Shown in pieces: positions 2,001 to 36,065 of a DNA stretch of 37,718 nucleotides (position 1 is its first letter; each line of letters opens with the position of its first letter). A program made the translations under genes and the position numbers. The DNA lies in the IMG/VR virus record IMGVR_UViG_3300009593_003021, positions 1-37,718 of that record; one strand, given 5' to 3'. The notes under the pieces are model-generated. The model made no database searches and was not told the DNA's origin. It saw only the letters and a program-made list of their open reading frames with translations. Source of the stretch: a virus.

Positions 2001-2013
2001 GGAGAGGATGACA

Positions 2014-3945: not shown

Positions 3946-3954
3946 GGAGTTATC

Positions 3955-5539: not shown

Positions 5540-5556
5540 CAGTATAAGGAAGAAAT

Positions 5557-6255: not shown

Positions 6256-6266
6256 TTTAGCATATA

Positions 6267-6274
6267 GATAAATA
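6267..6274 (+). promoter_or_regulatory. T4-type late promoter motif (GATAAATA)
   Basis: GATAAATA in the 38-base gap before the large YHYH protein. It is followed by AGGAG at 6282-6286 and ATG 6294, so it would give a short leader with a ribosome site. Confidence 0.6.
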
Positions 6275-6293
6275 TGTGTATAGGAGTTTTAGA

Positions 6294-10251: not shown

Positions 10252-10824
10252 ATGGCAAGTAATATTAATGATACTGGGGTAAACAAAGACTACCCTATAG
10301 CTGGGCAAGATAACGATTCACAAGGGTTTAGAGATAATTTTAATGTTATCAAAACTAACTTTGTTGCGGCTAAGAGTGAAATTGAAACACTTCAAACAAA
10401 TACTGCAAAGCTAAACGAAACAAATAATTTTTTAGCTAATGACATTAGCAATGCTAACTTAATTAACAACAGTGAAGGCTATTTTGCAGGTGGAACAGTT
10501 AATACAAGCCAAAACGTAAACTTCTCTAACGGTCACTTCCAGTCGTTTACAGTAGGTGCAGATGTTACATTAACATTTTCAAGTTGGCCTGCAACTAGTA
10601 AAACGGCTAAAGTTGTACTACACTTAAATAATGATGGTGTACAAAGAACTGTCACATTTGCTTCAAATGCTGGTGCTGGAACATTTAAAAAGATTAGCAC
10701 ATGGCCTGGAGCAGGAAATACTTTAACAGTTGATACTCCAAATTCTAGAATCTACGTTGTTGAATTTGTAAGTTATGATGCTGGTGCAACAGTATTTGCT
10801 AACTATATTGGTTACTTTGCATAA
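10252..10824 (+). CDS. Small tail-fibre/virion protein
   Basis: 190 residues. The start (MASNINDTGVNKDYPIAGQD, then 'GFRDNFNVIKTNF') is a diverged version of the N-terminal module at 1557 and 5557, with the same 'xxFxxNFxxI/L' helix. The C-terminal half is a beta-type domain rich in Thr/Ser/Asn ('TLTFSSWPATSKTAKVVLHL'). ATG follows a GAGAGG ribosome site and a late promoter motif. The next gene overlaps by TAATG. Probably a fibre-associated protein. Confidence 0.72.
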   Translation: MASNINDTGVNKDYPIAGQDNDSQGFRDNFNVIKTNFVAAKSEIETLQTNTAKLNETNNFLANDISNANLINNSEGYFAGGTVNTSQNVNFSNGHFQSFTVGADVTLTFSSWPATSKTAKVVLHLNNDGVQRTVTFASNAGAGTFKKISTWPGAGNTLTVDTPNSRIYVVEFVSYDAGATVFANYIGYFA

Positions 10825-11057
10825 TGCTTCATCCTTTTAATGAAGATTGCACAAAATTATCAACAGCTCAACTTTACGAAAAAGTTGCAGATTTAACCAA
10901 AAAATACTTCCAAACAAATAATCCTCAGGTTAAAAACCAAATTCAAACGTTTATTGATTACTATACTCAAGAAGCACAACGAAAAGAAGAAAAAGATAGA
11001 CAAGAGCAACAAGATATTGGCGAATTAGATCTTGACAAATTGATCAATATCAATTAA
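10824..11057 (+). CDS. Small helical protein of unknown function
   Basis: 77 residues, starting inside the stop of the upstream gene (TAATG). It is charged and helical: 'AQLYEKVADLTKKYF' followed by a Lys/Glu/Gln-rich stretch (about residues 52-66) likely to form a coiled coil. No recognised family. The coupling suggests co-expression with the upstream virion protein, but the gene lies at the border of the metabolic block. Confidence 0.65.
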   Translation: MLHPFNEDCTKLSTAQLYEKVADLTKKYFQTNNPQVKNQIQTFIDYYTQEAQRKEEKDRQEQQDIGELDLDKLININ

Positions 11058-11067
11058 AATAGTAAAC

Positions 11068-11625
11068 ATGCTTATGAAGACTGACAATTTAGGAATTCCT
11101 AGATTTACAAATAAAGATCTTATAGATATGATTTATTCAGGTCATATTGACAAATGCCATGTGGTACTTTGTGATCCTTCTGATGATATAGAAAAGTTTA
11201 ACGAGTTAGCAAAAGAACACGGAAAACTAGAACTCAAAAAATACATTCCAATAGATGTTGAACAAAAAGACTTTGATAACGTATGTCAATCAGAATGGTT
11301 TATGCCAGAGTCATACAAAGACAAGGATATGTATGAGTTTTGTAAGCATAAAATAATGGATGAAAAATATACTAGTTCTTATGCAACCGCAGAATTTTCA
11401 CCTGAATACGAACGTGCAGTTGAAGAATTAGACGAATTTGAAAAACGTGGAATGATGGATTTACTAAGATATATGGTATATTTGGTAGATTTCATGAGAG
11501 CAGAAGGAATTGTTTGGGGAGTCGGAAGAGGCTCTAGTGTAGCAAGTTATGTGCTATATTTAATAGGCATACATAAAGTGAACTCAATCCAGTATCAGTT
11601 GGATTGGCATGAGTTCCTGAGATAA
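11068..11625 (+). CDS. DnaE-like (Pol III alpha) fragment protein
   Basis: 185 residues. The C-terminal ~45 residues (MVYLVDFMRAEGI, VGRGSSVASYVLYLIGI, WHEFLR) match the block of bacterial DNA polymerase III alpha that reads Y-x-V-x-DF...GI-x-VGPGRGS-x-AGSLVAYLLGI...FERFLN. In true DnaE the catalytic Asp motif (PDxDxDF) lies just after this block. Here the protein ends before it, so polymerase activity is not expected. The N-terminal 110 residues were not recognised. ATG 11068 and ATG 11074 are both possible; neither has a strong ribosome site. It may be a nucleotide- or DNA-binding remnant, or a separate protein built on that fold. Confidence 0.65.
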   Translation: MLMKTDNLGIPRFTNKDLIDMIYSGHIDKCHVVLCDPSDDIEKFNELAKEHGKLELKKYIPIDVEQKDFDNVCQSEWFMPESYKDKDMYEFCKHKIMDEKYTSSYATAEFSPEYERAVEELDEFEKRGMMDLLRYMVYLVDFMRAEGIVWGVGRGSSVASYVLYLIGIHKVNSIQYQLDWHEFLR

Positions 11626-11652
11626 GTAAGTATATAATAAAGGAGGTCAATT

Positions 11653-12057
11653 ATGGCAGTCAGACAAACAGGTCGAAAGCAATATCAAACCATGCAGGGT
11701 AAACCCATTGACATGGATTTGCTAAGACAAAGAAATGAACTAACTCCAGCAGTTGGTAATGTTAGAGTAAATGCTAGAGGTGACGAATTAGGTCCAGGCG
11801 GCAAAATTATTAAAAAACGTGAAGCAGTTTTAAAAGACTACTACGAAGATAATGTTGCTCCTACACAATTCGAAGAGCCAACAGCAGATCCAATTACAGA
11901 ACCAGTTGTTGAACCTGAACTAGCAGTTGAAGTTGAAGAGCCAAAAGCCAAAACATCATCTACTAGAGCAAAGCCAGGTAAAACTAAAGCTGAATCAAAA
12001 GCAGAAGATGAGTGGGAAGAAGACGCAGACGGTAACTTCGTTAAAAGAGGTGCGTAA
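11653..12057 (+). CDS. Conserved phage protein of unknown function, acidic tail
   Basis: 134 residues with a very strong ribosome site (AAAGGAGG) before ATG 11653. The N-terminal half is basic and probably folded ('VGNVRVNARGDELGPGGKII'). The second half is Pro/Glu/Ala-rich and low in complexity, ending 'EDEWEEDADGNFVKRGA'. I do not recognise a named family. It overlaps the GroES-like gene by TAATG, so it heads the operon 11653-12865. The disordered acidic tail could be a partner-binding segment, which is inference. Confidence 0.7.
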   Translation: MAVRQTGRKQYQTMQGKPIDMDLLRQRNELTPAVGNVRVNARGDELGPGGKIIKKREAVLKDYYEDNVAPTQFEEPTADPITEPVVEPELAVEVEEPKAKTSSTRAKPGKTKAESKAEDEWEEDADGNFVKRGA

Positions 12058-12416
12058 TGGGAAACAACCTTATAACTATTGAAGTCGAAGGACTTAAAGC
12101 TATAGGAGATGGGGTAATAGTTTCCGAAATGAACTTTGGTGAACAGAAAACCAAATCAGGTTTAATTCTCAGAGCAGACGACGGTGAAGTAAGAGGCATT
12201 TATGCACGATGGGGTAAAGTATTAAGTAAAGGCCCTAAGAATACAGATCCGTATAAAGTAGGCGAATGGATCTTAGTTGACCATGGCCGTTGGTCGCGAG
12301 GCCTTGATGTAAGTATTAAAGGCGAGAAAACGACCGTAAGAAAAGTTGATGTTAACGATATCCTTGGCTACTCAGATAAGCCAATGTCAGATTATAGTAT
12401 TGGACAAGAAATATGA
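12057..12416 (+). CDS. GroES-like co-chaperonin
   Basis: 119 residues, about co-chaperonin size (GroES ~97, T4 gp31 111). The order of elements fits a GroES fold: 'GLKAIGDGVIVSEM' (strand before the mobile loop), a loop 'NFGEQKTKSGLIL', then 'RWGKVLSKGP', 'VGEWILVDHGRW' and the closing 'RKVDVNDILGY'. Expected role: a heptameric lid for host GroEL helping fold phage proteins, as T4 gp31 does for gp23. ATG overlaps the upstream stop, and the stop overlaps the next ATG (ATGA). Identity rests on motif order; a remote Gp31-like co-chaperonin is the best reading. Confidence 0.75.
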   Translation: MGNNLITIEVEGLKAIGDGVIVSEMNFGEQKTKSGLILRADDGEVRGIYARWGKVLSKGPKNTDPYKVGEWILVDHGRWSRGLDVSIKGEKTTVRKVDVNDILGYSDKPMSDYSIGQEI

Positions 12417-12865
12417 TAGAAGCAGAAGATTTTAAACGCAACTACGTTGAGCCGACTAACAGAGACATTGTTGACTTAAATAAGTACAAAGACTTTGTAG
12501 AAAAAGTAACATCAGACGAATCAAACGATTGGTCATATACTCAAGCTAGACTGCATGAGTTAAATGACGAAGTAAATGTTGCGTTACTGCTCACAGGAGC
12601 AATAGGTATTGCATCAGAAGGTGGAGAATATGCAGAAATTGTTAAGAAATGTATTTTTCAGGGTAAGCCTTTGGACAATGACACCAAATTTCATATTAAA
12701 CGAGAACTTGGCGACATTATTTGGTATTGGATTAATTCATGCCGTGCGTTGGATCTAGACCCCAACGAAGTAATAGCTGAAAACGTTAAAAAACTAAGTT
12801 CACGTTATCCAGGTGGTGAATTTGATGTTCATTATTCCGAAAATCGCAAAGACGGAGATTTGTAG
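12413..12865 (+). CDS. MazG-like nucleotide pyrophosphohydrolase
   Basis: 150 residues. The MazG/all-alpha NTP-PPase signature is visible: 'GIASEGGEYAEIVKK' (EGGEYAE, metal-binding Glu residues) and then 'KRELGDIIWYWINSC' (ExxD). MazG-type enzymes cleave (d)NTPs to NMP plus PPi. In marine phages they are proposed to alter nucleotide pools or the stringent-response state; the substrate here cannot be read from sequence. It overlaps the GroES-like gene by 4 bases. It is the last gene before a strong sigma-70 promoter. Confidence 0.8.
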   Translation: MIEAEDFKRNYVEPTNRDIVDLNKYKDFVEKVTSDESNDWSYTQARLHELNDEVNVALLLTGAIGIASEGGEYAEIVKKCIFQGKPLDNDTKFHIKRELGDIIWYWINSCRALDLDPNEVIAENVKKLSSRYPGGEFDVHYSENRKDGDL

Positions 12866-18163: not shown

Positions 18164-18853
18164 ATGAACGTAAAATTAATCAGTTATTCGCAACCAGCGG
18201 ATACTTTTATTAACTATGGAACAAAAGATTTTAGTGCTGACTTAGAAGCTTTAGTTGCTTTTTGTGCTAGGGTATCTAATCCAGCTAATCAAATGAATAA
18301 AGAAACAAGTGCAAAACTTATAAAATACTTAATTAAAAATGCACACTGGTCACCATTAGAAATGGTTAATGCTTGTTTAGAAATTGAAACTACACGAGAC
18401 ATTGCACATCAGATTGTAAGACATAGAAGTTTTAGTTTCCAAGAGTTTAGTCAACGTTATGCAAACCCAGAAGAAATGGGTGATATGTTTACACATCGTG
18501 AAGCTCGTATGCAGGATAAAAAGAATAGACAAAATAGTGTTGACTTAGATCCTGAAAATAAAGAAGATACTAGACTTGCAATGATATGGGGTAGTCAGCA
18601 AAATCAAGTTATTGACGCCGCACGTAGAGCTTACAAATGGGCTATAGATAATGGTATCGCAAAAGAACAGGCTCGTGTTGTCTTGCCTGAAGGGTTAACA
18701 AAGACAAGACTATATATGAACGGAACTCTACGAAGTTGGATACATTATATCGAACTCCGCGGGGCTAACGGCACACAAAAGGAACACATGGAAATTGCTC
18801 ATGCCTGTGCGAAAGTAATCTCCGAAATCTTTCCTTTAGCTAAAGAGCTTTAG
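18164..18853 (+). CDS. thyX: Flavin-dependent thymidylate synthase ThyX
   Basis: 229 residues. The ThyX signature RHRSFSFQEFSQRY is at residues 86-99 (RHRxxSxxxxSxRY). 'NAHWSPLEM' near 59 and 'LPEGLTKTRLYMNGTLRSWIHY' (Arg residues binding dUMP) complete the family pattern. It makes dTMP from dUMP using methylene-tetrahydrofolate, FAD and NADPH. ATG follows the upstream stop directly. It is convergent with phoH, the stops overlapping by four bases. Common in marine T4-like phages, where it supports AT-rich DNA synthesis. Confidence 0.95.
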   Translation: MNVKLISYSQPADTFINYGTKDFSADLEALVAFCARVSNPANQMNKETSAKLIKYLIKNAHWSPLEMVNACLEIETTRDIAHQIVRHRSFSFQEFSQRYANPEEMGDMFTHREARMQDKKNRQNSVDLDPENKEDTRLAMIWGSQQNQVIDAARRAYKWAIDNGIAKEQARVVLPEGLTKTRLYMNGTLRSWIHYIELRGANGTQKEHMEIAHACAKVISEIFPLAKEL

Positions 18854-18857
18854 CTCT
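18838..18857. terminator. Stem-loop at the thyX/phoH convergence
   Basis: Two mutually exclusive inverted repeats lie on the overlapping stops: AGCTAAAG/CTTTAGCT (18838-18845 and 18848-18855) and AGAGCT/AGCTCT (18844-18849 and 18852-18857), each with a 2-base gap. It could act as a bidirectional terminator between converging units. No T-run follows, so this is tentative. Confidence 0.3.
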
Positions 18858-19572
18858 CGCCGTATACTTCTAACACTTCTTTAACAGCTTCATGCCTTTC
18901 AATGTCAGCGTGACCAAACTTAACTGATGCTAATCTACTAGTGTTTGGACGAAGTTTTAACTGATTAATAAAGTCAATTAAGCCATTATCAGAGATTCTA
19001 TCAGCTTGATTTAAATCACCTGTAACAGCCATTTTAGATCCTTGACCTAATCTAGTTAACAACATTTTCATCTGACTTGCTGTAGAATTTTGCATTTCGT
19101 CAGCAATAATAAATGCACGTTTGAACGTACGACCACGCATATATGCTAGTGGTGCTATTTCTATAACACCTTCATCTATCATACCTGTTATTTCACGTGA
19201 CGTAAAGTATTCTCTAAGCACATCAAATACAGGCCTGGTCCACGGAGCCATTTTTTGTTCTAAAGATCCCGGTAAAAATCCTAGATCTTCGTCTACAGAA
19301 ACAGCTGGTCTAGTTACAATAATCTTGTCAACAACACCTTCTTTGAAGAGTTTAACAGCAGTTAGAACCGCAATGAGGGTTTTTCCTGTACCCGCCGGAC
19401 CAATTCCAAAGACTACGTCTTTTCTCGTGTCCGCCAAAGTAAGCAAGTAAGTTTCTTGGGCTCTATTACGTGGGTAAATTTTTACTGTTTGTTTCTTTTC
19501 TGGAAGATAGTTATTAAGTTGTACAACATTACTGTGAAAGTTTTTACTCTTGCGAGCTCGTCTTGCACTCAT
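18850..19572 (-). CDS. phoH: PhoH-like ATPase
   Basis: 240 residues on the minus strand. Walker A GPAGTGKT at residues 58-65, preceded by 'TRKDVVFGIGP'. Walker B region 'RAFIIADEMQNSTASQMKMLLTRLG' and 'SKMAVTGDLNQAD' (sensor I) are all PhoH family features. The first 30 residues are basic. PhoH proteins are P-loop ATPases, probably RNA-related; in marine phages they are a common marker gene with unsettled function. Strong ribosome site AAAGGAGG lies before ATG 19572. It is one of only two minus-strand genes here, with its own late-type promoter (19621-19628). Confidence 0.93.
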   Translation of the reverse strand: MSARRARKSKNFHSNVVQLNNYLPEKKQTVKIYPRNRAQETYLLTLADTRKDVVFGIGPAGTGKTLIAVLTAVKLFKEGVVDKIIVTRPAVSVDEDLGFLPGSLEQKMAPWTRPVFDVLREYFTSREITGMIDEGVIEIAPLAYMRGRTFKRAFIIADEMQNSTASQMKMLLTRLGQGSKMAVTGDLNQADRISDNGLIDFINQLKLRPNTSRLASVKFGHADIERHEAVKEVLEVYGES

Positions 19573-24839: not shown

Positions 24840-27104
24840 ATGGTAGAACCTTCAGAAGAACTGCAAGTAGTATTTGAAAAAGCAATAGAAGACGCAAAAA
24901 AGTTACGTCACGAATACGTAACTCTTGAGCATCTATTTTTTGCAATGCTTTGTAGTGAAAATTTTATGAAAGTCTTAACCGGCTATGGCTGTAAAATTGA
25001 CGACATGAAAGACGAGCTACACGATCATTTACAAACAAAACTTGACGAGATTAAGGTTCCAGATGGTCAAGAGAAATTTAAACCTAAGAAAACACAAACA
25101 GTTGAGCGAGTAATGAATAGAGCATTTACTCAAACACTTTTTAGTGGAAGAGCTAATATTGATACTACTGATGTTTTCTTATCGTTACTAAATGAATCTA
25201 AATCTTTTTCATGCTATGTAGCTACAAAAAACGGATTACAAAAAGATAAGTTTAGTGAATATATTAATAACGAATATGTAACAACACTTGAAGATGAAGA
25301 AATTGCAGGTCATGCACAACGGGCTTTAAAAGCATTTACTACGAATCTTAATGCTGAAGTTGAAAAAGGAATTATAGATCCTGTTATTGGCAGGATAGAA
25401 GAATTAGAAACTATTTGTCTTTCATTAGGACGAAGAAGTAAAAACAATGTACTATTAGTAGGTGATCCAGGAGTTGGTAAAACTGCTATTGCTGAAGGAC
25501 TAGCATATAGAATTGTTAATAAAGAAGTTCCAAAGTTTTTAGAAGAATATAGTGTATATAACTTAGACATCGGAGCAATGTTAGCCGGATCTAAGTATAG
25601 AGGAGACTTTGAAGAACGATTTAAACTAGTAATGGCCGCTATTAAAAAGCAAGGTAAAACTATTGTCTTTATTGATGAAGCACATATGATAAACGGTGCA
25701 GGTGCAGGTGGCGGACAAAGTTCTAATGATTTAGCTAATATGTTAAAACCAGCATTAGGTAAAGGCGACATTAAAGTTGTTGCTTCTACTACTTGGGAAG
25801 AATATAGAAAATACTTTGAAAAAGATAGAGCTTTAATGCGTAGATTCCAAAGATGTACTATTGACGAACCAGATAAAAAGACAGCTACAAAGATCTTAGA
25901 TGGTATTAAAAAGTACTACGAAGAATTCCATCAAACTAACATTACACAAGAAGCAATAGATGAAGCAGTTAAACTTAGTGTCAAGTATATGACCGATAAA
26001 AAACTTCCAGACAAAGCAATTGATTTAATTGATTTAGCTTGTTCAAGATTTAAAGTTAAGAATCAAGAAGAAAATAAGGTTGTTACACCAGAAGAAATTA
26101 AGTACGAACTTGCAAAACTTGTTAACTTGCCACCAGAGCAAATACAACAAAAAGAAACTAACAATCTTTCACAGTTAAATAAAAATCTAAAATTAAATGT
26201 TTACGGACAAGATAATGCTATAGATGAAATTGTTGATAAAATTTTAGTAGCTCAAGCTGGATTAAAATCAGAAGATAAACCAATTGGTTCTTTTGTGTTT
26301 ATGGGTCCAACTGGTGTAGGTAAAACAGAACTTGCAAAACAACTAGCTAAACATTTAAGTATACATTTAGCAAGATTTGATATGAGTGAATATCAGGAAA
26401 AACATAGTGTTAGTAAATTAATTGGATCGCCTCCAGGATATGTTGGTCACGACGAACATTCAGGACAACTAATTAATAAGCTACAAGAAAATCCAAACTG
26501 TGTTTTACTATTAGACGAAGTTGAAAAAGCACATCCAGATATATCACAAATTTTGTTACAACTAATGGATAACGGAAAAGTTACAGGAAGTGACGGCAAA
26601 GAAGCCGATGCTCGAAATTGTATCTTAATTTTAACTACTAACTTAGGCGCAGAACAGGCAGAAAAAGACACCATTGGATTTAGTCACGATGCTGATGGTG
26701 ACTATGGCGATGAAGAATTTAAACGTTTCTTTGCACCAGAATTTAGAAATAGATTAGATGGCGTAGTTACATTTGGTAAACTCGATCATAATATCATGCT
26801 TAAAATTGTTGGTAAATTCCTAGTAGAATTAAAAGATATGCTAGATGAGAAAAAAGTAGTTTGTGAAATATCAGACCCTGCACTTGATCATTTAGTTGAA
26901 CATGGCTTTGATAGCAAGATGGGTGCAAGACCTATGCAACGATATATTGACAAAAATATCAAACGTCCTTTAAGTAAATTACTACTTTTTGGTGAGTTAA
27001 GAAATGGTGGAAAATTAAAAATCGACATTAAAAACGATAAACTAATTCTTAACCCAGAACCAATAAAGGTAGAAAATGAAGTTGAAGCAGTTACAAACAA
27101 CTAA
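24840..27104 (+). CDS. clpA: ClpA-type AAA+ unfoldase
   Basis: 754 residues (E. coli ClpA 758). N-domain ~1-145 ('LRHEYVTLEHLFFAML'). First AAA+ Walker A GDPGVGKT at 208-215, with 'TIVFIDEAHMINGAG' as Walker B. Second Walker A GPTGVGKT at 489-496, with 'CVLLLDEVEKAHPDI'. There is no ClpB-type middle coiled coil. The ClpP-binding tripeptide IGF is at 612-614, in the position of IGL in ClpA, so docking to a ClpP is expected. No clpP is seen in the window, so host ClpP is the likely partner. ATG follows AAGGAG and a dual promoter region. Confidence 0.93.
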   Translation: MVEPSEELQVVFEKAIEDAKKLRHEYVTLEHLFFAMLCSENFMKVLTGYGCKIDDMKDELHDHLQTKLDEIKVPDGQEKFKPKKTQTVERVMNRAFTQTLFSGRANIDTTDVFLSLLNESKSFSCYVATKNGLQKDKFSEYINNEYVTTLEDEEIAGHAQRALKAFTTNLNAEVEKGIIDPVIGRIEELETICLSLGRRSKNNVLLVGDPGVGKTAIAEGLAYRIVNKEVPKFLEEYSVYNLDIGAMLAGSKYRGDFEERFKLVMAAIKKQGKTIVFIDEAHMINGAGAGGGQSSNDLANMLKPALGKGDIKVVASTTWEEYRKYFEKDRALMRRFQRCTIDEPDKKTATKILDGIKKYYEEFHQTNITQEAIDEAVKLSVKYMTDKKLPDKAIDLIDLACSRFKVKNQEENKVVTPEEIKYELAKLVNLPPEQIQQKETNNLSQLNKNLKLNVYGQDNAIDEIVDKILVAQAGLKSEDKPIGSFVFMGPTGVGKTELAKQLAKHLSIHLARFDMSEYQEKHSVSKLIGSPPGYVGHDEHSGQLINKLQENPNCVLLLDEVEKAHPDISQILLQLMDNGKVTGSDGKEADARNCILILTTNLGAEQAEKDTIGFSHDADGDYGDEEFKRFFAPEFRNRLDGVVTFGKLDHNIMLKIVGKFLVELKDMLDEKKVVCEISDPALDHLVEHGFDSKMGARPMQRYIDKNIKRPLSKLLLFGELRNGGKLKIDIKNDKLILNPEPIKVENEVEAVTNN

Positions 27105-27762
27105 CCTCTTTTATAATAGATACATTTATAAACTAAGGGTTCGAAACGAAATAGGATCAATATTTCGAGGAATGAATCTTGGTTATGCGAAATCAAAGAT
27201 TGATGTAATGCAACAATATGCCGAATCAGAACAAAACATCAGAAGTCCTTTTGATGGATGGCGTAAGAAAGAAAAATATATTACTCTTGAAACTTTTATG
27301 GATACTCTTGCTACCTATAATGCATTAGAAAGTAATAAAGACGAATGTATGGTTAGGTGTGAAAATCATAACTTAGACATATACTCAAATGAATCTAAAT
27401 GGCTCAAAGATCTTAGTAATACAGTTGAGTCAGTTGAATTTTGGGAGCCAAAAGATGATGTAACACTTGAGTTTTTATTAGATAATAAAAATACTATAAT
27501 AGTTAATCGAGCAGTATCATGGCCGTTTAAAGCAATACTAGGAAAAAGAGTTGATCCTAAATTTGCTCAGTACTGCCTAAATAATGTAGACAAAGTTAAG
27601 ATAGGTAAGAGGACTTTGAAAAGTATACAGAATGGACATAACACAGAAGGATATTACTTTATGTCAAAAGATGAAAAATGTTTAATGTTAGCAAAAATAG
27701 CATTAGGTGGGGCTATACGTAAGATTGTCAAGTACGTTAGCGACGCAGAATTGCATAAATAG
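27076..27762 (+). CDS. Unknown protein downstream of clpA
   Basis: 228 residues starting inside the clpA 3' end, in a different frame, with AAAGG before ATG 27076. Visible features: basic N-terminal third ('NEIGSIFRGMNLGYAKSKID'), 'SPFDGWRKKEKYITLETFMD', an acidic middle, and a basic C-terminal third ('KVKIGKRTLKSIQNGHNTEGYYFMSK', split by short loops). No motif recognised. Basic ends suggest nucleic-acid contact; coupling to clpA hints at shared timing. Confidence 0.65.
   Translation: MKLKQLQTTNLFYNRYIYKLRVRNEIGSIFRGMNLGYAKSKIDVMQQYAESEQNIRSPFDGWRKKEKYITLETFMDTLATYNALESNKDECMVRCENHNLDIYSNESKWLKDLSNTVESVEFWEPKDDVTLEFLLDNKNTIIVNRAVSWPFKAILGKRVDPKFAQYCLNNVDKVKIGKRTLKSIQNGHNTEGYYFMSKDEKCLMLAKIALGGAIRKIVKYVSDAELHK
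27755..27761 (+). promoter_or_regulatory. T4-type late promoter motif, leaderless type
   Basis: ATAAATA spans the last codons and stop of the upstream gene and ends 5 bases before ATG 27767. No ribosome site lies between. Confidence 0.6.
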
Positions 27763-28116: not shown

Positions 28117-28383
28117 ATGGAAAATTTTATCAACATTGTATTTGACTCTAAAGAAGAAGTAGACGACATAGTTGTCTCCGAAGTAGCAACATCAGCTTCA
28201 AATGCCTTATTGGAAGAAGAAACAGGATATGAACTGTATGATACCGAAGACGGTAAAACAATTCTAACAGTTGAAACACATGTTCAACTAGATGAACAAG
28301 AGTCAAACGAAGTTGCAGAAAAAGTTGCCCACAAACTTTTTGATTTAGGTTACGAGAAATTTGACGTTGAAGTGAGTGTTTAA
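28117..28383 (+). CDS. Small acidic protein of unknown function
   Basis: 88 residues, with a short GGAAG ribosome site before ATG 28117. Strongly acidic. Two alpha/beta elements are visible ('NALLEEETGYELYDTEDGKT' and 'NEVAEKVAHKLFDLGYEKFD'). It overlaps the next gene by TAATG. Not recognised. It may be a partner of the 460-residue protein that follows. Confidence 0.65.
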   Translation: MENFINIVFDSKEEVDDIVVSEVATSASNALLEEETGYELYDTEDGKTILTVETHVQLDEQESNEVAEKVAHKLFDLGYEKFDVEVSV

Positions 28384-29765
28384 TGCGTTTCTATCAGTTC
28401 AAAGAATCTAAAGGAGTATTTGGACGAAAAGCTGGAGATCCTTATATTAACAGTTCCGGAGTTACAGGTGAATTTGTTGATGTAGCTAAAGCATTTCCTC
28501 CTCCATCAGAAGGTGGAAAATTTGACAGCATTGATGCACGTGACGATGCAATCCAACAATACGAAACAAACAATAATACAAAGATACAATGGGTAAATGC
28601 CGCTACAATGAGTAAGCGGGGTTTAGCTTTTGGTGTAGCAATTATTAAAACAACAGACGGACAAGAAATACATTTTGGAAAGTATCTTACACAAGTAGGT
28701 GCTGACTTAATGGGTGCTTGGAAAAACAACGAGTTACCCGATGGTTGGAAACTTGCTACAGCAGGTGCACAGAAATTAGAAACAGGATTAGATCCACAAA
28801 CGTTAATTGGAACTGCAAATTATTTTAAAGGACCAGATAGTATAATAGCACACGTTGAAGGCAAAGCGCCTAGTGAAGCTAAACAAGTATTAGGTAATGC
28901 ATTAAGGCAAAGTGCCGCAGGACAACTAGCAAAATTTCCAGGACAACGTGAAAAGCTAACAGCCGTTAGAGATTACTTTGGCGAGATTATGGGTCCAGTT
29001 GCTATGATGGGCGGAGCAGTTATGGGTCAGGCTGAAGACGCAAGAAAAGATTTAGCACAAGGTGCTGAATGGAGTGACTTACAAATATTTTGGCCACAGT
29101 CAATGAACTATAACTTAATGGATAGTGTATTTAAAGCACCAGATGGAAAAGACATTGGTATTAGTTCTAAAGGTGGTTCAGGTGCGGCGGCTAGTTCTAA
29201 AAACTTACACGATTCTTTAAAGAAAGCACGTGGAGAAGATGGTGGAACAAAAAATCAAGATCTTTTAGATAGGTTAAAATTTATCCCTAGTGTTATTGAT
29301 ATTATTGCAAATCAAAATGCAAAAATTGCTCCTTATATGTTAGGAGTTAACTTTGGTATTACTACTGAGCGTTTACAAGCAGAAGCTATAAAACTTATGA
29401 AGCAAGGCGGAAATTCATTTGAAGGATTAAGTGACGAAGCAAGAAACATAATGGACGGTATAAATTTTGATACAAACTCACAAGGATTTAATATTGGGTA
29501 TGCATTAACTAGTGCAGTTGCTAAAGCCGTTGCTAAAAAAGTAAACGAAGATCCAAGATTTAGTACTGAAGCTATTGCATTACTAAACACAGCCAGCATT
29601 ATTCAATTATACACTAGAGTTGGTGTTAAAGGTGAAGATGTTTTTGTTACAAAATATGATGCAGTATATCCGCCAAACTTCCAAGGAAAAGTATTACTAG
29701 ATGGAAGTAAAAACTATTATAGTTCAAGAGTTGGCGGAAAGTTTGCCTTTAGGTTTGCAAAGTAA
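28383..29765 (+). CDS. 460-residue protein with capsid-targeting-like start
   Basis: It starts MRFYQFKES, similar in pattern to the T4 internal-protein leader MKTYQEFIAE, with a possible cleavage after FKE. The core has 'GLAFGVAIIKTTDGQEIHFG', a long 'SEAKQVLGNALRQSAAGQLA' helix region and 'DGKDIGISSKGGSGAAASSK'. The last motif (G-I-S-S-K-G-G) resembles the Lys-bearing strand of some restriction-enzyme-like folds, but a matching acidic pair is not certain. I know no family name. Coupled to the upstream acidic protein. Its stop lies over the end of speD on the other strand. Confidence 0.72.
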   Translation: MRFYQFKESKGVFGRKAGDPYINSSGVTGEFVDVAKAFPPPSEGGKFDSIDARDDAIQQYETNNNTKIQWVNAATMSKRGLAFGVAIIKTTDGQEIHFGKYLTQVGADLMGAWKNNELPDGWKLATAGAQKLETGLDPQTLIGTANYFKGPDSIIAHVEGKAPSEAKQVLGNALRQSAAGQLAKFPGQREKLTAVRDYFGEIMGPVAMMGGAVMGQAEDARKDLAQGAEWSDLQIFWPQSMNYNLMDSVFKAPDGKDIGISSKGGSGAAASSKNLHDSLKKARGEDGGTKNQDLLDRLKFIPSVIDIIANQNAKIAPYMLGVNFGITTERLQAEAIKLMKQGGNSFEGLSDEARNIMDGINFDTNSQGFNIGYALTSAVAKAVAKKVNEDPRFSTEAIALLNTASIIQLYTRVGVKGEDVFVTKYDAVYPPNFQGKVLLDGSKNYYSSRVGGKFAFRFAK

Positions 29766-30117
29766 CTAAACTATTTTCTCTATCCAAATACTTATAATCA
29801 ATTTTAGTAGGATTAAATTCTTTTAAAGCCTCAAATACAATTTCTTTATCTAAATTACCACATGTATAAACATCTAATTGTATTAAACTAGGATCGTCTT
29901 CGTCCCATACGTGTATTGCTATATGTGAAGTTTCGATTATAGTAACACAAGTAATTCCTCTATTTCCTTCTACAGCACAATATTGGGCATATGGACCCAT
30001 CATTATTTTCATTCCTATAGATTCTATTAATTTTTTAGCCCACCCTACTATTTGATCCTCTTTATTAGGTGGATTTTTAACCTCTGACCGTACAATTAGG
30101 TGTTTATGTTGAAGCAT
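29749..30117 (-). CDS. speD: S-adenosylmethionine decarboxylase proenzyme
   Basis: 122 residues on the minus strand, the usual length of bacterial SpeD. The processing site is 'IIETSHIAIHVWDE': Ser64 becomes the pyruvoyl group, with His69 as the conserved catalytic residue. 'LDVYTCG' gives Cys86 as proton donor. It makes decarboxylated SAM for spermidine synthesis. No spermidine synthase is in the window. ATG 30117 follows AAAGGAA. It converges on the 460-residue gene with a 17-base overlap. speD occurs in several marine T4-like phages as an auxiliary gene. Confidence 0.9.
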   Translation of the reverse strand: MLQHKHLIVRSEVKNPPNKEDQIVGWAKKLIESIGMKIMMGPYAQYCAVEGNRGITCVTIIETSHIAIHVWDEDDPSLIQLDVYTCGNLDKEIVFEALKEFNPTKIDYKYLDRENSLVTLQT

Positions 30118-30160
30118 GAAATTCCTTTTGGGTTTATTTATACTCTGATATATTTTATCA

Positions 30161-30189
30161 TTGACTAATCTTGATAAATACTTTATAAT
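30161..30189 (+). promoter_or_regulatory. Sigma-70 promoter (early)
   Basis: TTGACT 30161-30166, a 17-bp spacer, TATAAT 30184-30189. It lies in the 95-base gap between speD and the gene at 30213. The spacer contains a full late motif (30173-30180), so early and late elements are superimposed. Confidence 0.8.
30173..30180 (+). promoter_or_regulatory. T4-type late promoter motif inside a sigma-70 spacer
   Basis: GATAAATA lying between the -35 and -10 of the early promoter. It would start transcription about 25 bases before ATG 30213. Confidence 0.5.
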
Positions 30190-30198
30190 GCATTATAA
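30183..30198. repeat. 16-bp perfect palindrome over the -10
   Basis: TTATAATGCATTATAA is a perfect 16-bp palindrome that contains the TATAAT hexamer. It could be an operator for a dimeric repressor, or simply a symmetric AT-rich promoter. Confidence 0.5.
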
Positions 30199-30212
30199 TA
30201 AAGGGTATTAGT

Positions 30213-30560
30213 ATGAGAATAGACGAATTTTCTAAACCAGTTGAAGACGAAATGCCATATGATGTACCAAGTGATGTACATTTTCATATGCTAAACGACG
30301 ATGGTTTTTATAGAGCACACTACCTTCCTTGTATGGAAAAAATTAGAAGTGAACGCAATGAAGCTATAGTACAAGGCCATTTAAAGCCTATGATAGATAA
30401 ATGCTTAAATCATTACTGTATTAAGTATGATATTAACAAAACACCAAACGAGTTAATGACTGATGGAGAAAGATCAGAATTAGCTAGTAAAGTTATAGAT
30501 TTTGAAAGAAACCCTACGGAGGAATTAGATGCTACTTCGCCAGCTGACAGAATCTCCTAA
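30213..30560 (+). CDS. Small protein with capsid-targeting-like start
   Basis: 115 residues. Starts MRIDEFSKPVEDEMP; I3-D4-E5 fits the [IL]-x-E prohead-protease consensus. The rest is acidic and helical with His/Cys scattered ('DVHFHMLNDDGFYRAHYLPC', 'KCLNHYCIKYDINKTPNELM'). No family recognised. It overlaps the nucleotidyltransferase gene by 32 bases and heads that unit under the early/late promoter. Confidence 0.68.
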   Translation: MRIDEFSKPVEDEMPYDVPSDVHFHMLNDDGFYRAHYLPCMEKIRSERNEAIVQGHLKPMIDKCLNHYCIKYDINKTPNELMTDGERSELASKVIDFERNPTEELDATSPADRIS

Positions 30561-31398
30561 TACTGCTGTATTTGCATTTGGGAGAATGAACCCGCCAACT
30601 ATCGGGCATAAAAAATTAGTAGATGTAGTTAAAGCACAAGAAGGCGTACCTTTTTTATTCTTAACACATTCACAAAAACCTAAAACAGATCCTTTATCAT
30701 TTGCAGAAAAAGTATTTTTTGCAGGAAAGAGTTTTGGCGACGGAATACGTATAGGTGATAAAGAAGTTAGAACAATAATCCAAGCTATGCAAAAATTAGA
30801 AAAGATGGGATTTAGAAATGTTGTTTATGTAGCTGGAAGCGATAGAGTAGATAGTTTTTCTAAACTACTAAATGACTATAACGGAAAAGAATACAAGTTT
30901 CAAGATATAAAAATTATAAGTGCTGGATCTCGAGACCCTGATGCAGAAGGTGCTGAAGGAATGAGTGCAAGTAAAATGAGAACCGCGGCGATGGAAGGCG
31001 ACGAAGATGCATTTGAAAGTGGCGTTGCTGTTCAAGATGCTCAGTTAGCTAAAATGATGTATGCAAAAGTTCGTCAAGGAATGGGCATAGTTGAAGAAAA
31101 TATATTTAAAGCACCTGAACGTACAGTACAACAACAAAAACCTAAAATAGATGTTTTAAATAATATTTCTCAACGATCTGATCCAAAGCCTTTTCCATTA
31201 AGTTGGGACTCTAGAGCAAAAGGTGAAATACACGTAGGCGGAAAAATATTTGTAACGCCAAAAGTAGCAAATAAATTTGTACAATTCTATGATAAGAAAG
31301 ATGTCGAAGCCCAACAAGCAATGCAACAAGCATTACGAAGTGCAAAAACTACTGCAACACTTTTTGATCGCTTAGGCTTAAAATACTCAAAGGTATAA
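30529..31398 (+). CDS. Nucleotidyltransferase with capsid-targeting-like N-terminus
   Basis: 289 residues, with ACGGAGG before ATG 30529. The first 9 residues MLLRQLTES contain L6-T7-E8, a T4 gp21-type site. The enzyme core follows directly: 'FAFGRMNPPTIGHKKLVDVV' (the TIGH form of HxGH) and 'EGMSASKMRTAAMEG' (the ISxTxxR-type motif). Cytidylyl/adenylyltransferase superfamily; substrate not known. The C-terminal ~100 residues after 'NIFKAPERTVQQQ' form a separate region of unknown role. The N-terminal tag suggests the protein may be packed in the head. Confidence 0.8.
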   Translation: MLLRQLTESPNTAVFAFGRMNPPTIGHKKLVDVVKAQEGVPFLFLTHSQKPKTDPLSFAEKVFFAGKSFGDGIRIGDKEVRTIIQAMQKLEKMGFRNVVYVAGSDRVDSFSKLLNDYNGKEYKFQDIKIISAGSRDPDAEGAEGMSASKMRTAAMEGDEDAFESGVAVQDAQLAKMMYAKVRQGMGIVEENIFKAPERTVQQQKPKIDVLNNISQRSDPKPFPLSWDSRAKGEIHVGGKIFVTPKVANKFVQFYDKKDVEAQQAMQQALRSAKTTATLFDRLGLKYSKV

Positions 31399-31401
31399 TA
31401 A

Positions 31402-31611
31402 ATGGACTTAGAACGTCTTAAAAAATTAGCAGGAGTAAATGAATTTAAAGGGTATCAAGAATACTCACTTGAAAATATTTCAAAAACTGCTAGTGAAAAA
31501 AAAGCTATTGAAAAAAAGAAAAACATTAAGCCAGGTGACCCGGATTGGTTTAAACTTTGGTTTAGCTTACCACACATGACTGGTGGTGGGTTTAGAGGAC
31601 GTACAAAATGA
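31402..31611 (+). CDS. Small basic protein of unknown function
   Basis: 69 residues (MDLERLKKLAGVNEFKGYQE...). The N-terminal helix is followed by a Lys-rich stretch and a conserved-looking C-terminus 'KPGDPDWFKLWFSLPHMTGG' with aromatic repeats. I recall similar 'WFKLWFxLP' endings in marine myovirus proteins of unknown role. Overlaps the next gene (ATGA). It might also be packaged, but the first residues lack a clean [IL]-x-E site. Confidence 0.62.
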   Translation: MDLERLKKLAGVNEFKGYQEYSLENISKTASEKKAIEKKKNIKPGDPDWFKLWFSLPHMTGGGFRGRTK

Positions 31612-34058
31612 AGATACAAGAAGCAGTAGGACGTATTACAAAACAAAATCAAACTGCTGATGTAGGCCCTGATGAAATTATAAAGCAGGCGGCAAAGTTT
31701 GGCTTTAAAGTAAACAAAGACGGCGTACCACAAAATCATCCTAAAAAAGTTAAAGGTCCTAGTACTAATGTACTTTTTAATTTAGGACTTGCTGAGGCTG
31801 TATCTTATAACAAACCAAATTTTAGTAACGAATGGGGTGAAGCAAAACGTTATCCTGAGTTTGTAAAAATTGGAAAAAAAGAATGGATTGAGTTAGCATC
31901 TAAAGGCAAAGAAATTACTGTTAACAATTCATTAAGTAATAAAATTAATAATACAGAAGCTGGTGAAAAAGACAGACACACTTTTGATAAGTTAGAACCT
32001 TCTAAGAAAGAAAGATTTAAAGATGCATTAGACTTTGGAAAAATTGAACTTCCAATTATTGCAAAATACAGCGACGGTTATTTAGAGTTAGTTGCAGGCA
32101 ATACTAGACTAACAGGTATGATGAATGAACTAGGTAAAGGTAAAGCATGGATATTTGACGTTCCTGATGAAATTGCAAATTTATCTGAAAGAGTAATGAC
32201 TACTAAACAAGCAGTTGCTCAGATGAATCATTATTGGAAAAATATGTCTCATGCAATGGTTTCTGATAATGATAGAAAAAGAAGTATGGATAAAAGGTTT
32301 GGTATTAAAGATATTAAACTTGATCAGCATGGAAATATTATATCGTTTGACAAGTATAAACGTGGACAATTTGAACAAGCTGGAAGTAGAACAGATGAAA
32401 ATCCATTATTAACACTTGGTACTAAAGCTCTACAATGGGCCGCACCTAGAGCTTCAAGTCTTGGAGCACAAGCTGGAGCGGCAATTGGTTCCGCAACGCA
32501 ATGGGGTAAGAACGTTGCAAAGAATTATAAAAAAGGTCCAGGGAAATCAACAGCATCTGGAAATACAGATCCAAATGGTCCAACAATACTACCTAAAGTA
32601 GCTGGAACAAGTGCAACAAGCACAGGCGGGACAGAGTATAAACCACACAAAACAGTAACAAAATTAATGAAAGTAGGAGAAGTTTCAGCAGACGATTTAA
32701 GTAACGAATCAGAAGTATTTGTTGATATGGACGGAGTGTTAGCAGACTTCTTTGGTGCTTGGAAAAGTCTTATTGGTAAAGACTGGAGAGAAATTAAAGA
32801 CATCGACGATGCATTACAAAAGATAAGAGATAAAGATGGATTTTGGTTAAACATTCCTTTAACATCTAATGCTTTAAACTTACTAGGTATGATTAAAGAA
32901 TTAAAAGGAAAGTATAATATATTAAGTGCTCCGCTACCAAACGATCCTAACTCAGAACCACACAAAAAAGAATGGATTGCAAAGAACTTAAAAGCATTTC
33001 CTCCTTCTAAAATAATTATTACTTCAAATAAATCAGTACATGCAACACAACCAAACGGTACACCAAACATATTAATTGACGACTATGGAAAAAACATAGC
33101 AAGTTGGGAAGCCGCAGGTGGGGTAGGATTTAAACATAAAGACCATAAGTTTGAAAGAACTGTGAAAAACTTAAAAGCACATATGAGTGAAGAAATGAGC
33201 AAATCATCAATTAAGAAAGCACATAAAACAGCTGATAAAATTAAAGACAAACCTAAAGCTAAAAAGTCTATTGCAAAATGGGCTAAGAAAAGAGGTATGG
33301 ATCCTGATGGAGCAATTTATGCCATAGCAACTAATATGCAGAAACGTAAAGAAGGAAAACCAGTTGAGTCTTACAAACGTTCAGAACTTCCACAAATAAG
33401 AAAAGAACATTTGAAGAAGTTTCCACACGTAATAGAATATGTAAATGTAAAAGATCTTATACCAGTACAAGAAGAAAGAGTAAAAGATAACTTTAAAAAA
33501 CAATTAAAGAAAATTTCCGAAGGAAAATATTCCCCAATAGTTGTAGATGCTGAAAATAAAATTATTAATGGGCATCATAGATATGATATTGTAAAAATGT
33601 TAGAAATGGAGAAAATAAGTGTAGCTAAAGTTCCATTTACATTAAAACATATAATGATAACATTAAACGAAGGAAAAAGCCCACACAAAAAAGGTACTAA
33701 AAAATACAAAAAACATATGGCGGCAATGCATGCCGGAATGGGCGAAAAAGTTGAAGAAGGTGACTTAATTCCTAATCCTAAAAACTCTATGCTAGTCAAA
33801 AAAGATGACAACTATGATTGGTATAACATTGGGACAAATATGGCAAATATTAAAAGTATGGATAAAAAGCATGCCAGTAAGAATAAACCAGATGTAATGG
33901 TAACAATGCAATCAGGTAAGAAGATGAAAAACTACTTAAAAAAACATCTTAAAAGATTAGGATACGGTGTTCAAGACGCTGATGGATATAAAGATACACA
34001 TTATGACGAAAGTGCTAATAAGACCGAGACATACACTTTAGCCATTAAACTAAGGTAA
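31608..34058 (+). CDS. 816-residue ParB-like / HAD-like / ParB-like fusion protein
   Basis: Starts MKIQEAVGR (I3-Q4-E5, prohead-protease-like). Domain 1 (~120-180) is ParB-like: 'KIELPIIAKY', 'LELVAGNTRLTGMMNEL' (G164-N-T-R167). Domain 2 (~368-520) is a HAD 5'-nucleotidase-like phosphatase: 'VFVDMDGVLADFF' with D373 and D375, 'YNILSAPLP', 'KIIITSNKSVHA' and 'NILIDDYGKNI'. Domain 3 (~618-680) is a second ParB/Srx-type module: 'VNVKDLIPVQEERVKD', 'YSPIVVDAENKIINGHHRYD' (GHHR 655-658). Near 690 there is a basic 'SPHKKGTKKYKKHMAAMHAG' segment. ParB folds bind or cleave nucleotides or DNA; HAD enzymes remove phosphates. The whole looks like a multi-enzyme head protein acting on nucleotides or DNA ends, which is inference. 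Confidence 0.75.
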   Translation: MKIQEAVGRITKQNQTADVGPDEIIKQAAKFGFKVNKDGVPQNHPKKVKGPSTNVLFNLGLAEAVSYNKPNFSNEWGEAKRYPEFVKIGKKEWIELASKGKEITVNNSLSNKINNTEAGEKDRHTFDKLEPSKKERFKDALDFGKIELPIIAKYSDGYLELVAGNTRLTGMMNELGKGKAWIFDVPDEIANLSERVMTTKQAVAQMNHYWKNMSHAMVSDNDRKRSMDKRFGIKDIKLDQHGNIISFDKYKRGQFEQAGSRTDENPLLTLGTKALQWAAPRASSLGAQAGAAIGSATQWGKNVAKNYKKGPGKSTASGNTDPNGPTILPKVAGTSATSTGGTEYKPHKTVTKLMKVGEVSADDLSNESEVFVDMDGVLADFFGAWKSLIGKDWREIKDIDDALQKIRDKDGFWLNIPLTSNALNLLGMIKELKGKYNILSAPLPNDPNSEPHKKEWIAKNLKAFPPSKIIITSNKSVHATQPNGTPNILIDDYGKNIASWEAAGGVGFKHKDHKFERTVKNLKAHMSEEMSKSSIKKAHKTADKIKDKPKAKKSIAKWAKKRGMDPDGAIYAIATNMQKRKEGKPVESYKRSELPQIRKEHLKKFPHVIEYVNVKDLIPVQEERVKDNFKKQLKKISEGKYSPIVVDAENKIINGHHRYDIVKMLEMEKISVAKVPFTLKHIMITLNEGKSPHKKGTKKYKKHMAAMHAGMGEKVEEGDLIPNPKNSMLVKKDDNYDWYNIGTNMANIKSMDKKHASKNKPDVMVTMQSGKKMKNYLKKHLKRLGYGVQDADGYKDTHYDESANKTETYTLAIKLR

Positions 34059-34061
34059 ATA
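34055..34061 (+). promoter_or_regulatory. T4-type late promoter motif, leaderless type
   Basis: GTAAATA overlaps the stop of the upstream gene and ends 7 bases before ATG 34069, with no ribosome site between. Confidence 0.6.
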
Positions 34062-34068
34062 CTATATT

Positions 34069-35349
34069 ATGTTAATAAGAGAACTTACAAATAACGTTAA
34101 AACTCCATTAAACGAATGGGCGCCTCTTTGGGCGGCTGTTGATGTATTGTTTGGTGCTAGTCCAGCTGGACAGTGGAGTGACAGATCTCCAGCTTCACAA
34201 TTATATCATTCGCTATCAAGTAATCCTGCAACTAAAGATTCTGCACATGATGCGGCATTAGAATTTCAACAAAGAATTAATAAAGAAGGTGTAACTGACG
34301 AATTAATGAAAATATGGTCAAATGCAACAGGAAGTAATTTTGCAAAATCATTTCCTTGGATGATGCCAAAAGTTTCAGTTCCACAACCAGGAACAGGCGC
34401 AGACGGACCTGCAGGCGGAGCAAAACCTCCTCCTCCACCTCCAGTAACAACTAAAGCTGAACCTCCAAAAGTAGACCCTAAAGCTGTAATAGCAAAGGTT
34501 CCAAGTTCAGTTACTGATCAAAGCGGACTAATATCTACATTAAAAGGAACTAAAAATGGTTGGATAGATGGTATTGCAAAAACTACTACACTATCTCCTG
34601 CTAATGCAAGTAAACTTGTAAATTACGGAATACCTGCGGCAGGTATATTAGCTTTATTATATGGTGGCAAAAAACTTTGGGATTATTATCAAAAGAAAGA
34701 CAAAAAGACTGCTACAGGACCAGCGAAGTTTGTAACGGCTTCTGCACAAGAGAACATCCAAGAAGGTGGATACATTAATAATACAAAAGATGCTATAGAA
34801 ACCTTAGGAAGTCTTAGAGGTAAAGGTAAGCAATTAGAAAGAGGCCAACAGGAATACGAAGGCAATCTACCAAATGAATACGTTAATGATGTATGGGACG
34901 TATGGACTTGGATAGAAAGTAAACTTGGTGGTGGAGCAGAAGCAAATGATCCAAAACTTAAAAGTATAATGACAGATGTTTTTGCACTAAGAGGCGAAGC
35001 TAAAAAAATGGAACGCATTTACAAACCAGATTTAGAACGTACAGATGATCATATGGGTGCGGCTGGCTTTGGTAACATGGTAGTTAATACTCTTTACCCT
35101 TTAATGCAATGGCTAGATATGAATGAGAAAAAATTTGAATCTATTGCAAACGAGACTGCTACAGCTGGTGCTACAGTCGCAGGAAATATTGCGGCAGTAC
35201 CAAGTCCAGATGCGGCTTATCATAAAAGTAAAAAACGTGGAAAATACGGCGCTCCACAAGCCCCACAAAAGAAAAATAAAGACGGAACTGCTAAAAATGC
35301 ACTAGATGTTAGTAATAATATCATGGGTGGGAAAACAATTAAAAGATAA
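34069..35349 (+). CDS. Pro-rich protein with one hydrophobic helix and capsid-targeting-like start
   Basis: 426 residues. Starts MLIRELTNN; I3-R4-E5 fits [IL]-x-E. Residues ~105-140 are Pro/Gly-rich, including six consecutive prolines. A single hydrophobic helix lies at about 184-200 ('YGIPAAGILALLYGGKKLW'), followed by Lys-rich sequence. The helical C-terminal half contains 'DVWDVWTWIESKLGGGAEAN' and a basic tail ('AYHKSKKRGKYGAP'). Not recognised. The helix may insert into a membrane or pack in the head; the ATG abuts a late promoter motif. Confidence 0.7.
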   Translation: MLIRELTNNVKTPLNEWAPLWAAVDVLFGASPAGQWSDRSPASQLYHSLSSNPATKDSAHDAALEFQQRINKEGVTDELMKIWSNATGSNFAKSFPWMMPKVSVPQPGTGADGPAGGAKPPPPPPVTTKAEPPKVDPKAVIAKVPSSVTDQSGLISTLKGTKNGWIDGIAKTTTLSPANASKLVNYGIPAAGILALLYGGKKLWDYYQKKDKKTATGPAKFVTASAQENIQEGGYINNTKDAIETLGSLRGKGKQLERGQQEYEGNLPNEYVNDVWDVWTWIESKLGGGAEANDPKLKSIMTDVFALRGEAKKMERIYKPDLERTDDHMGAAGFGNMVVNTLYPLMQWLDMNEKKFESIANETATAGATVAGNIAAVPSPDAAYHKSKKRGKYGAPQAPQKKNKDGTAKNALDVSNNIMGGKTIKR

Positions 35350-35352
35350 ATA
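35345..35352 (+). promoter_or_regulatory. T4-type late promoter motif (GATAAATA)
   Basis: GATAAATA overlaps the upstream stop and lies 17 bases before ATG 35370, with a GAGG ribosome site between. Confidence 0.6.
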
Positions 35353-35369
35353 CTTACGAGGACGTAATT

Positions 35370-36065
35370 ATGAAAGAAAAAGACTTAAAAGAGAACGGTT
35401 TAGCTGATATGGCATATAAGGTCGAAAAAGACCACGAAGTGCAAATGGCTAGAGGTGAATTATACAAAGTAGCAAAATACTCTATTAAAATGCATGAAAT
35501 GCTCAAAGGTGTTTCAGAAGAGCAAGGTCTTGAAGGTTGGGTCCAAGCTAAGATAACAAAAGCCGCTGACTACTTAGGAAGCGTCTATCACCATATGGAT
35601 TATGAAATGAAATTTGATGAAGTAACTGAAGCAAACGAATCATGCGGTAAACCACATGCTAAGAAAAACAAAAAGAATGAAGAAGCAACACCAGTAGATG
35701 ACGACGATCCAAGATATGCTGATGATGAAAATCTTCCTAAAAACAAAAAGAAGAAAAAAGTAAAAAAAGAGTCAATTGAAAAAGTTGGAAAAATCTTATA
35801 TGATGCAGAAGATGCACTACTTAAAGAAGACTTAGGTGCGGCACTAAATCATTTAGTTGCGGCAACAAAAGAGATTGGTAAAACAATCGGTGGCGGTGCT
35901 ATTGATGCTGTAGCTGGCGGAGCTGGTGCGGCAATGGGTTTACCTAGTAGAATAAAAAGCAAATTTCAAAAAGCTAAATCTGGCGTCGAAAGAAATTCAA
36001 TTAACTACGAAGATACTTTAGCAGATAGATTACAAGCTAAATTAGCAGAAGCTAATAAAGAGTAA
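35370..36065 (+). CDS. Two-part helical protein with capsid-targeting-like start
   Basis: 231 residues. Starts MKEKDLKENG; L6-K7-E8 fits [IL]-x-E. Residues ~18-85 form a helical domain ('KDHEVQMARGELYKVAKYSI', 'EGWVQAKITKAADYLGSVYH') that I recall recurring in marine T4-like phage proteins without a known role. A charged linker (~90-130) has Asp and Lys clusters ('DDDDPRYADDENLPKNKKKK'). The C-terminal part has a Gly/Ala-rich hydrophobic stretch ('GGGAIDAVAGGAGAAMG'). Probably an internal head or head-assembly protein, which is inference. Confidence 0.7.
   Translation: MKEKDLKENGLADMAYKVEKDHEVQMARGELYKVAKYSIKMHEMLKGVSEEQGLEGWVQAKITKAADYLGSVYHHMDYEMKFDEVTEANESCGKPHAKKNKKNEEATPVDDDDPRYADDENLPKNKKKKKVKKESIEKVGKILYDAEDALLKEDLGAALNHLVAATKEIGKTIGGGAIDAVAGGAGAAMGLPSRIKSKFQKAKSGVERNSINYEDTLADRLQAKLAEANKE

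Follow-up and report, generated by a model that had tools for sequence, protein, structure and literature searches.

The 37.7-kb fragment of a marine T4-like myovirus analysed here (a virus record; the whole stretch of 37,718 nt is referred to as the window) contains a block of genes that is very probably a capsid-cargo island, with cleavable tags resembling the capsid targeting sequence (CTS) of phage T4, and with the cargo being delivered together with the DNA. There was no match at the DNA level between the window and named phages, and two virus contigs, G001 (267,783 bp) and G002 (199,810 bp), were taken for comparison as the nearest large relatives. Both encode a head module with portal, gp21, gp22 and gp23, and the gp21 prohead protease (Peptidase_S77, PF03420) is present in both as well as in three cyanophages. 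The window, a fragment without the head module, showed no gp21 gene; gp21 and gp23 were therefore taken from the relatives, with gp21 of the window phage itself being inferred. A search of the window for the portal family PF07230 gave no match and is uninformative, since the control matched nowhere either. The genes of the window include what we take to be tail-fibre genes, a gp44-like clamp loader, PhoH, ThyX, DnaJ and a ClpA-like gene (names assigned partly by eye). A subtilase-like gene at 3955-5536 seems to be broken across three frames (3955-4395, 4344-5141 and 5195-5536), and 162243-163895 of G002 may be its intact relative. A 185-aa protein (11068-11625) with the motif GVGRGSSVASYVLYLIGI presumably resembles a small stand-alone piece of the bacterial DNA polymerase III alpha subunit, and a 174-aa ORF at 154671-155195 of G002 looks similar to it.

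Results

An earlier note, made from the sequence alone, had listed six proteins of the block that start with a short peptide carrying [ILF]xE, and all six proved to be correctly placed, with plausible ATG starts. Such starts, scored as [ILF]xE ending by residue 9, were found in 6/8 genes of the block versus 1/43 other genes of the window (Fisher p=1e-5), and the homologous blocks of G001 (5/8 versus 25/282 elsewhere, p=4e-4) and G002 (5/9 versus 28/211 elsewhere, p=5e-3) gave a similar result, so that the starts are concentrated in the block and not equally common elsewhere. The motif is short and has a background of ~10% among the gene starts of the relatives. As it was picked after viewing the sequence, it was tested by families and not by single genes, using 46 gene families (each with at least 6 distinct N-termini) built from about 80 loci. 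The motif was present in at least 60% of the distinct N-termini in 12/46 families, ten of which are located -2 to +6 genes from the nucleotidyltransferase, while the flanking families were mostly near zero. The two remaining high-motif families, UvsX and an ACP-like protein, apparently reflect chance; sequences related by homology are not independent of each other. Further tagged families in the block of the relatives start with MSKTFKDYLKE/A, MKLIDFITE/F and MLLVE/DKNTHLEH (the slash marks the site after the Glu).

A protease site at the Glu would be expected to stay at a fixed position before the mature domain even as the remainder of the tag changes, and this was observed: in the relatives, the Glu and the hydrophobic residue at -3 stand in register before the conserved cores, with the length of the upstream peptide varying. 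The register was kept in 22/22 contexts for protein A, 11/11 of the contexts with a Glu for protein G, 5/5 for E2, and 16/16 with a Glu for protein F, 13 of these with a hydrophobic -3 residue. With the class of the -3 residue widened to V/F, the CTS format ([IL]xE-ending peptide of about 5-20 residues before the mature domain) was met by proteins A, C, D, E, F and G. Membership of protein B (115 aa, 30213-30560, plus strand, N-terminus MRIDE/F) is unclear: the motif is found in 89% of its 28 distinct N-termini and the [ILV]xEF start is conserved, but there is no fixed junction with the core, and since its site is not anchored to the core it is the weakest member of the set.

Protein A (460 aa, 28383-29765, plus strand) is a putative cargo protein with the predicted propeptide MRFYQFKE/S (28383-28406). 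Its junction reads [ILVFM]xE/[AS] in all 22 valid contexts, both N-terminal and polyprotein-internal (a 23rd regex match was excluded as a non-homologue), and I, L, V and F interchange at -3 without ever leaving the class. The window start MRFYQFKE/SKGVFGR is matched in the relatives by MRFYQIKKPLFE/AKGVFGR, MRFFEFKQTQVIE/SKGIFGR, MRAKEFIIE/AKGMFGR and MFLKELLFENDLTE/AKGVFGR. In the AlphaFold model, protein A folds with good confidence (pLDDT 83) and values <50 are confined to residues 1-9; this modelled disorder matches the predicted propeptide. A viral fold match was obtained with the S-PM2 GC841 protein (E=5e-7), and comparison of sequence and fold with Pfam and the PDB gave nothing significant. 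The PDB fold list held MvaI and HincII at E about 3 only, and a nuclease function, suggested by the conserved D247...SSK263, is no more than a lead. No match in named phages was obtained by tblastn with protein A and the region 27076-27762.

Distant members of the protein A family form the C-terminal domain of tagged proteins of 1,100-2,350 aa, many of which start like MKFKDVRTLESILVE/YGM. The junctions between polyprotein and domain A (VRSLIE/SKGIMGR, KSILAE/AKGLMGR, VVTE/AKGIMGR and IINE/SRGLYGR) have the same motif and mature start as stand-alone protein A, and the simplest reading, which remains an inference, is that the prohead protease would separate the domains of these polyproteins. 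At 298-7329 of locus L151 and at other loci within L147-L163, giant proteins begin with a tag-like peptide, contain an amidoligase-like domain and end in a protein-A domain, which follows a protease-like junction. The speD gene (S-adenosylmethionine decarboxylase, 29749-30117, minus strand; Pfam PF02675, 55.6 bits) is outside the tagged set; it lies on the opposite strand within the block and overlaps the end of protein A, and a small minus-strand gene follows protein A in loci L122 and L142 as well.

Protein C (30529-31398, plus strand) is a cytidylyltransferase-like nucleotidyltransferase (PHROG 3041, E=2e-51) with the predicted propeptide MLLRQLTE/S (30529-30552). A start like M[LFR][LI]R[EQ][LI]xE[ASN] is kept in most of about 80 loci, with MLLRQLTE/S, MFLRELFE/A, MLITEIVE/A and MRIVEVVE/A among the family starts, and some nucleotidyltransferase homologues are without the tag (MSKTVFAFGR... 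and, in HTVC008M, MKTLKELLRKKVGRKQ). The adjacent protein D (69 aa, 31402-31611, plus strand; predicted propeptide MDLERLKKLAGVNE/F, 31402-31443) had been skipped in the list of six; its site LAGVNE14/F is in register, and LAG[IV][NG]E/[FY] is found in many members of its family. The gp22 scaffold proteins of G001 (98391-99494) and G002 (18397-19503) have C-termini ending in VDIRRLAGL[NK], which resembles the N-terminal MDI..L..LAG[IV] of protein D.

Protein E (816 aa, 31608-34058, plus strand; predicted propeptide MKIQE/A, 31608-31622) consists of a ParB-like domain, an NT5C/HAD nucleotidase and another ParB-like domain (matching NT5C in Pfam and ParB PHROGs), and its start MKIQE/AVGRITK aligns with MKLRQLYE/GVGRITK and MRWHEISE/GVGRI of relatives. 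Protein E contains a PNPKNSF...GTN module in the window and in G002, whereas in G001 the module is part of protein C; this module and ParB-like modules were seen fused to the nucleotidyltransferase in G001 (210283-212223) and to the nucleotidase in the window. As far as can be judged from sequence, the tagged proteins shuffle domains. Protein G (231 aa, 35370-36065, plus strand; predicted propeptide MKEKDLKE/N, 35370-35393) belongs to a family in which [LV]xE precedes a [GDNT]LA core, always with a hydrophobic -3 residue where the Glu is present, as in the starts MKEKDLKE/N, MREKDLKE/D and MIEAEKLLNE/G.

Protein F (426 aa, 34069-35349, plus strand) is Pro-rich with a hydrophobic helix and, like the nucleotidyltransferase and the ParB-HAD-ParB protein, fits the description of the cargo in the earlier note. 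Its tag site had been placed at IRE5, but the alignment of homologues indicates LNE16/W as the probable site (predicted propeptide MLIRELTNNVKTPLNE/W, 34069-34116), because insertion-bearing relatives carry LKE/F and VDE/F at the same place, and IRE5 was dropped. Stand-alone F relatives carry LINE/I or IISE/V. Residues 363-377 of protein F (35155-35199, plus strand) form a module like the N-terminal arm of gp23, NE/TATAGATVAGNIAAV, and no other protein of the window has this motif. The consensus of stand-alone F proteins, M[RKLF]I[RT]E[LI]xxE/xA[TS]AGATSAG, is collinear with gp23 WLNE/TATAGSTSAGNVAT, and the Glu of the tag is collinear with the arm in examples such as MRIRDIISE/VASAGATSAGSVASV and MLIRELINE/IATAGSTSAGSIATV. 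The gp23 of this clade reads KWLNE/TATAGSTSAGNVATL where T4 gp23 has FLTE/A, the known site of T4, and a protease site in the clade gp23 is inferred by this homology. The tag site thus matches that of the capsid protein (WLNE/TATAGSTSAG in gp23 versus IISE/VASAGATSAG and LEE/TATAGGTSAG in the F family).

Among the 290 ORFs of G001 and 220 of G002, the gp23-arm string was found only in gp23 and in one F protein each. Protein F of the window represents the same gene carrying an insertion of ~345 residues, which separates MLIRELTNN from NE/TATAGATVAGNIA and provides a natural example of modularity. Copying of a different gp23 arm by a neighbouring small protein is seen in cyanophages: TTGYTGGDAATGPTAGYDPVM of syn9 is 76% identical to its own gp23 (TTGYTGGDTVTGPVAGFDPVL), and gp160 of S-CREM2 (AAGATGFTGAAAPEGPVAGYDPLM) matches the arm of its own gp23 (AVGADGFTGAAAPGGPNAGFDPVM), hence the arm copies resemble the gp23 of their own clade. 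No convincing gp23-arm copies were found in the parts of T4, HTVC008M and G006 that were compared.

TAAATA boxes resembling late promoters are located on the plus strand upstream of the genes for proteins B (30175-30180), F (34056-34061) and G (35347-35352). Ten of the 24 plus-strand copies of TAAATA fall in the 6% of the sequence just upstream of genes, including B, F, G and tail genes, and this placement would fit late expression; there was no enrichment of the classical T4 late promoter TATAAATA.

Evidence for presence in virions comes from published mass spectrometry and covers homologues or analogues in S-SM1 and S-CREM2, not the window phage. The cyanophage cytidylyltransferase/nucleotidyltransferase T4-GC190, which starts with MKKFSAFLNE/A in S-SM1, was detected in S-SM1 virions (PMC3037559), and a table of virion proteins has been published for the isolate S-CREM2 (PMC10665884). 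The motif is present in 9/13 virion-detected non-structural proteins of S-CREM2 versus 6/54 other genes (p=6e-5). This comparison covers two regions, the remaining genes of which form the contrast set, and since the regions were picked for holding virion non-structural genes the test is strong, but not genome-wide; a few of the nine matches, such as gp17, may be chance. The tagged virion proteins include the cytidylyltransferase (MKNFSSFLTE/A), gp13 (MKDLHSFLTE/Q), gp15 (MNFSEFNE/S) and, at 3837-5081 and 10579-12846 of the S-CREM2 sequence (L164), a SAM lyase (Pfam S-AdoMet_lyase, 2e-19; MKDFDSFLEE/F), which may be a packaged anti-restriction effector, and an APH-like kinase (VKRFDAFLTE/E). 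The gp23-arm protein gp160 is also listed among the virion proteins. As relatives bearing the same label have been found in real virus particles, these phages probably deliver a protein toolkit with their DNA. The S-CREM2 virion protein annotated as Cas9 (7704-10313 of L164) has no Pfam match, and this annotation was therefore not relied on; the protein has RFASFMAE/A near residue 25, possibly ending a longer propeptide.

Discussion

The suggestion in the earlier note of T4-type capsid targeting and prohead-protease cleavage acting on unrelated proteins is supported by the observed motif and its register, its collinearity with the gp23 junction, the gp21 of the relatives and the detection of tagged relatives in virions. 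In the proposed mechanism, the propeptide would dock the protein into the prohead core, like the T4 CTS, gp21 would then cut after the Glu of [ILVF]xE, and the mature protein would stay in the head until delivered with the DNA. The tag is modular and stands before varied domains (nucleotidyltransferase, ParB/HAD nucleotidase, a fold without solved relative and small basic proteins), and on some cargo the copied gp23 N-terminal arm would probably provide a further element for processing or for docking to the shell. The docking, the cleavage and the ejection are all inferred, as is what the cargo does in the cell, and the same is true of an action on host DNA, nucleotides or defences, with which the tagged SAM lyase in S-CREM2 virions fits.

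The proteins could also be tagged and cleaved, but kept in the capsid undelivered as minor scaffold or structural head proteins, which differs from the above in the last step only. The gp22-like LAGL string in protein D, the gp23-like arm in protein F and the small and basic nature of several members speak for this, yet we consider it unlikely, as the nucleotidyltransferase, nucleotidase, SAM lyase and kinase-like domains are enzymatic and probably act on substrates inside the cell, and ejection is known for Alt and many of the T4 IPs (PMC9026906). It is considerably less probable still that the N-terminal peptides are uncleaved docking tags for the prohead core, with the Glu belonging to a docking helix: despite the variable upstream length, the Glu and the hydrophobic -3 residue keep their register with the core, and the motif appears again where domains join within proteins and at the gp23 junction, even if the M[IL]LRE[LI]F of some homologues of protein B and of a small portal-adjacent protein of G001 (MILRELFYFD) lacks a Glu with a small residue after it. 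That the likeness merely stems from common descent and the composition of gene starts, without a targeting role, can hardly be maintained, since the shortness of the motif, its match to ~10% of other genes and its high frequency in UvsX and the ACP-like family are set against a location of 10/12 high families in the block, flanking families mostly nearly devoid of it, the gp23-junction collinearity and the correlation with virion detection in S-CREM2.

The capsid-cargo reading with delivery may extend to a general loading code in marine T4-like phages, consisting of a protease-cleaved CTS on many effectors and on giant polyproteins, which the prohead protease would cut up into separate effectors in the head, and a second tag that copies the gp23 arm and co-diverges with gp23 as a shell-docking element; this is quite possible, and we put it forward only tentatively. 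No literature on such tags in marine phages was found among open-licence papers. Few viruses of the ocean are as abundant as the T4-like phages, and the role of most of their genes is not known. With a readable loading signal, the proteins that accompany the DNA into the cell, ahead of phage gene expression, could be predicted from sequence; the signal would also explain why a cytidylyltransferase, a kinase and a SAM lyase are present in the virions of cyanophages, and would give a route to pre-emptive anti-defence effectors. The tags themselves (e.g. MLLRQLTES, MRFYQFKES and IISEVASAGATSAG) would supply new packaging tags for phage research.

Among known systems, the polyvalent proteins (PMC5512222) are likewise phage proteins of several domains, ParB-like ones among them, which are shuffled between proteins, and packaging and injection are predicted for them; the accessible part of that account describes them without a T4-type tag, whereas a tag and protease-like junctions are visible in the window block. 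The presence of several shuffled conflict-type domains per polypeptide is shared (ParB-HAD-ParB in protein E, and the PNPKNSF...GTN module), but the hub domains of the polyvalent network (MPTase, ArdC-N, MuF-C, ART and others) had no Pfam match in the window block, the only such match being Amidoligase_2 in related polyproteins, and the block is therefore not filed with the polyvalent proteins. A virion cytidylyltransferase/NMNAT, kinase and SAM hydrolase are known from cyanophages (PMC10665884, PMC9602691, PMC3037559), of which the nucleotidyltransferase family and the location in virions are shared with the set described here; in their accessible portions, these papers report or propose encapsidation without giving a signal for it. 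The inner-head proteins of phiKZ/SPN3US (PMC5694885) are also carried in the head and matured by a gp21-related protease that acts after xxE motifs, with an identical N-terminus kept by two diverged paralogues, but their propeptides are mostly >100 residues, compared with about 5-18 for window-type tags.

The closest format is that of T4, for which the L/I-x-E rule and the function of the CTS have been described (PMC9026906), and in which the same type of start is found in ipII/III (MKTYQEFIAE/A), gp24 (MAKINELLRE/S), gp22 (MLKEQLIAE/A) and gp21 (MNEPQLLIE/T). As with the gp21-cleaved CTS of IPI, IPII, IPIII and Alt, a short N-terminal peptide ending in [IL]xE precedes the mature domain of unrelated proteins, the phage group has gp21, and cargo of relatives has been detected in virions. 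The marine set differs in its genes and cargo (nucleotidyltransferase, ParB/HAD and polyproteins), in allowing V or F at -3, in its very variable tag length, and in having a cargo island, gp23-arm copies and sites within polyproteins.
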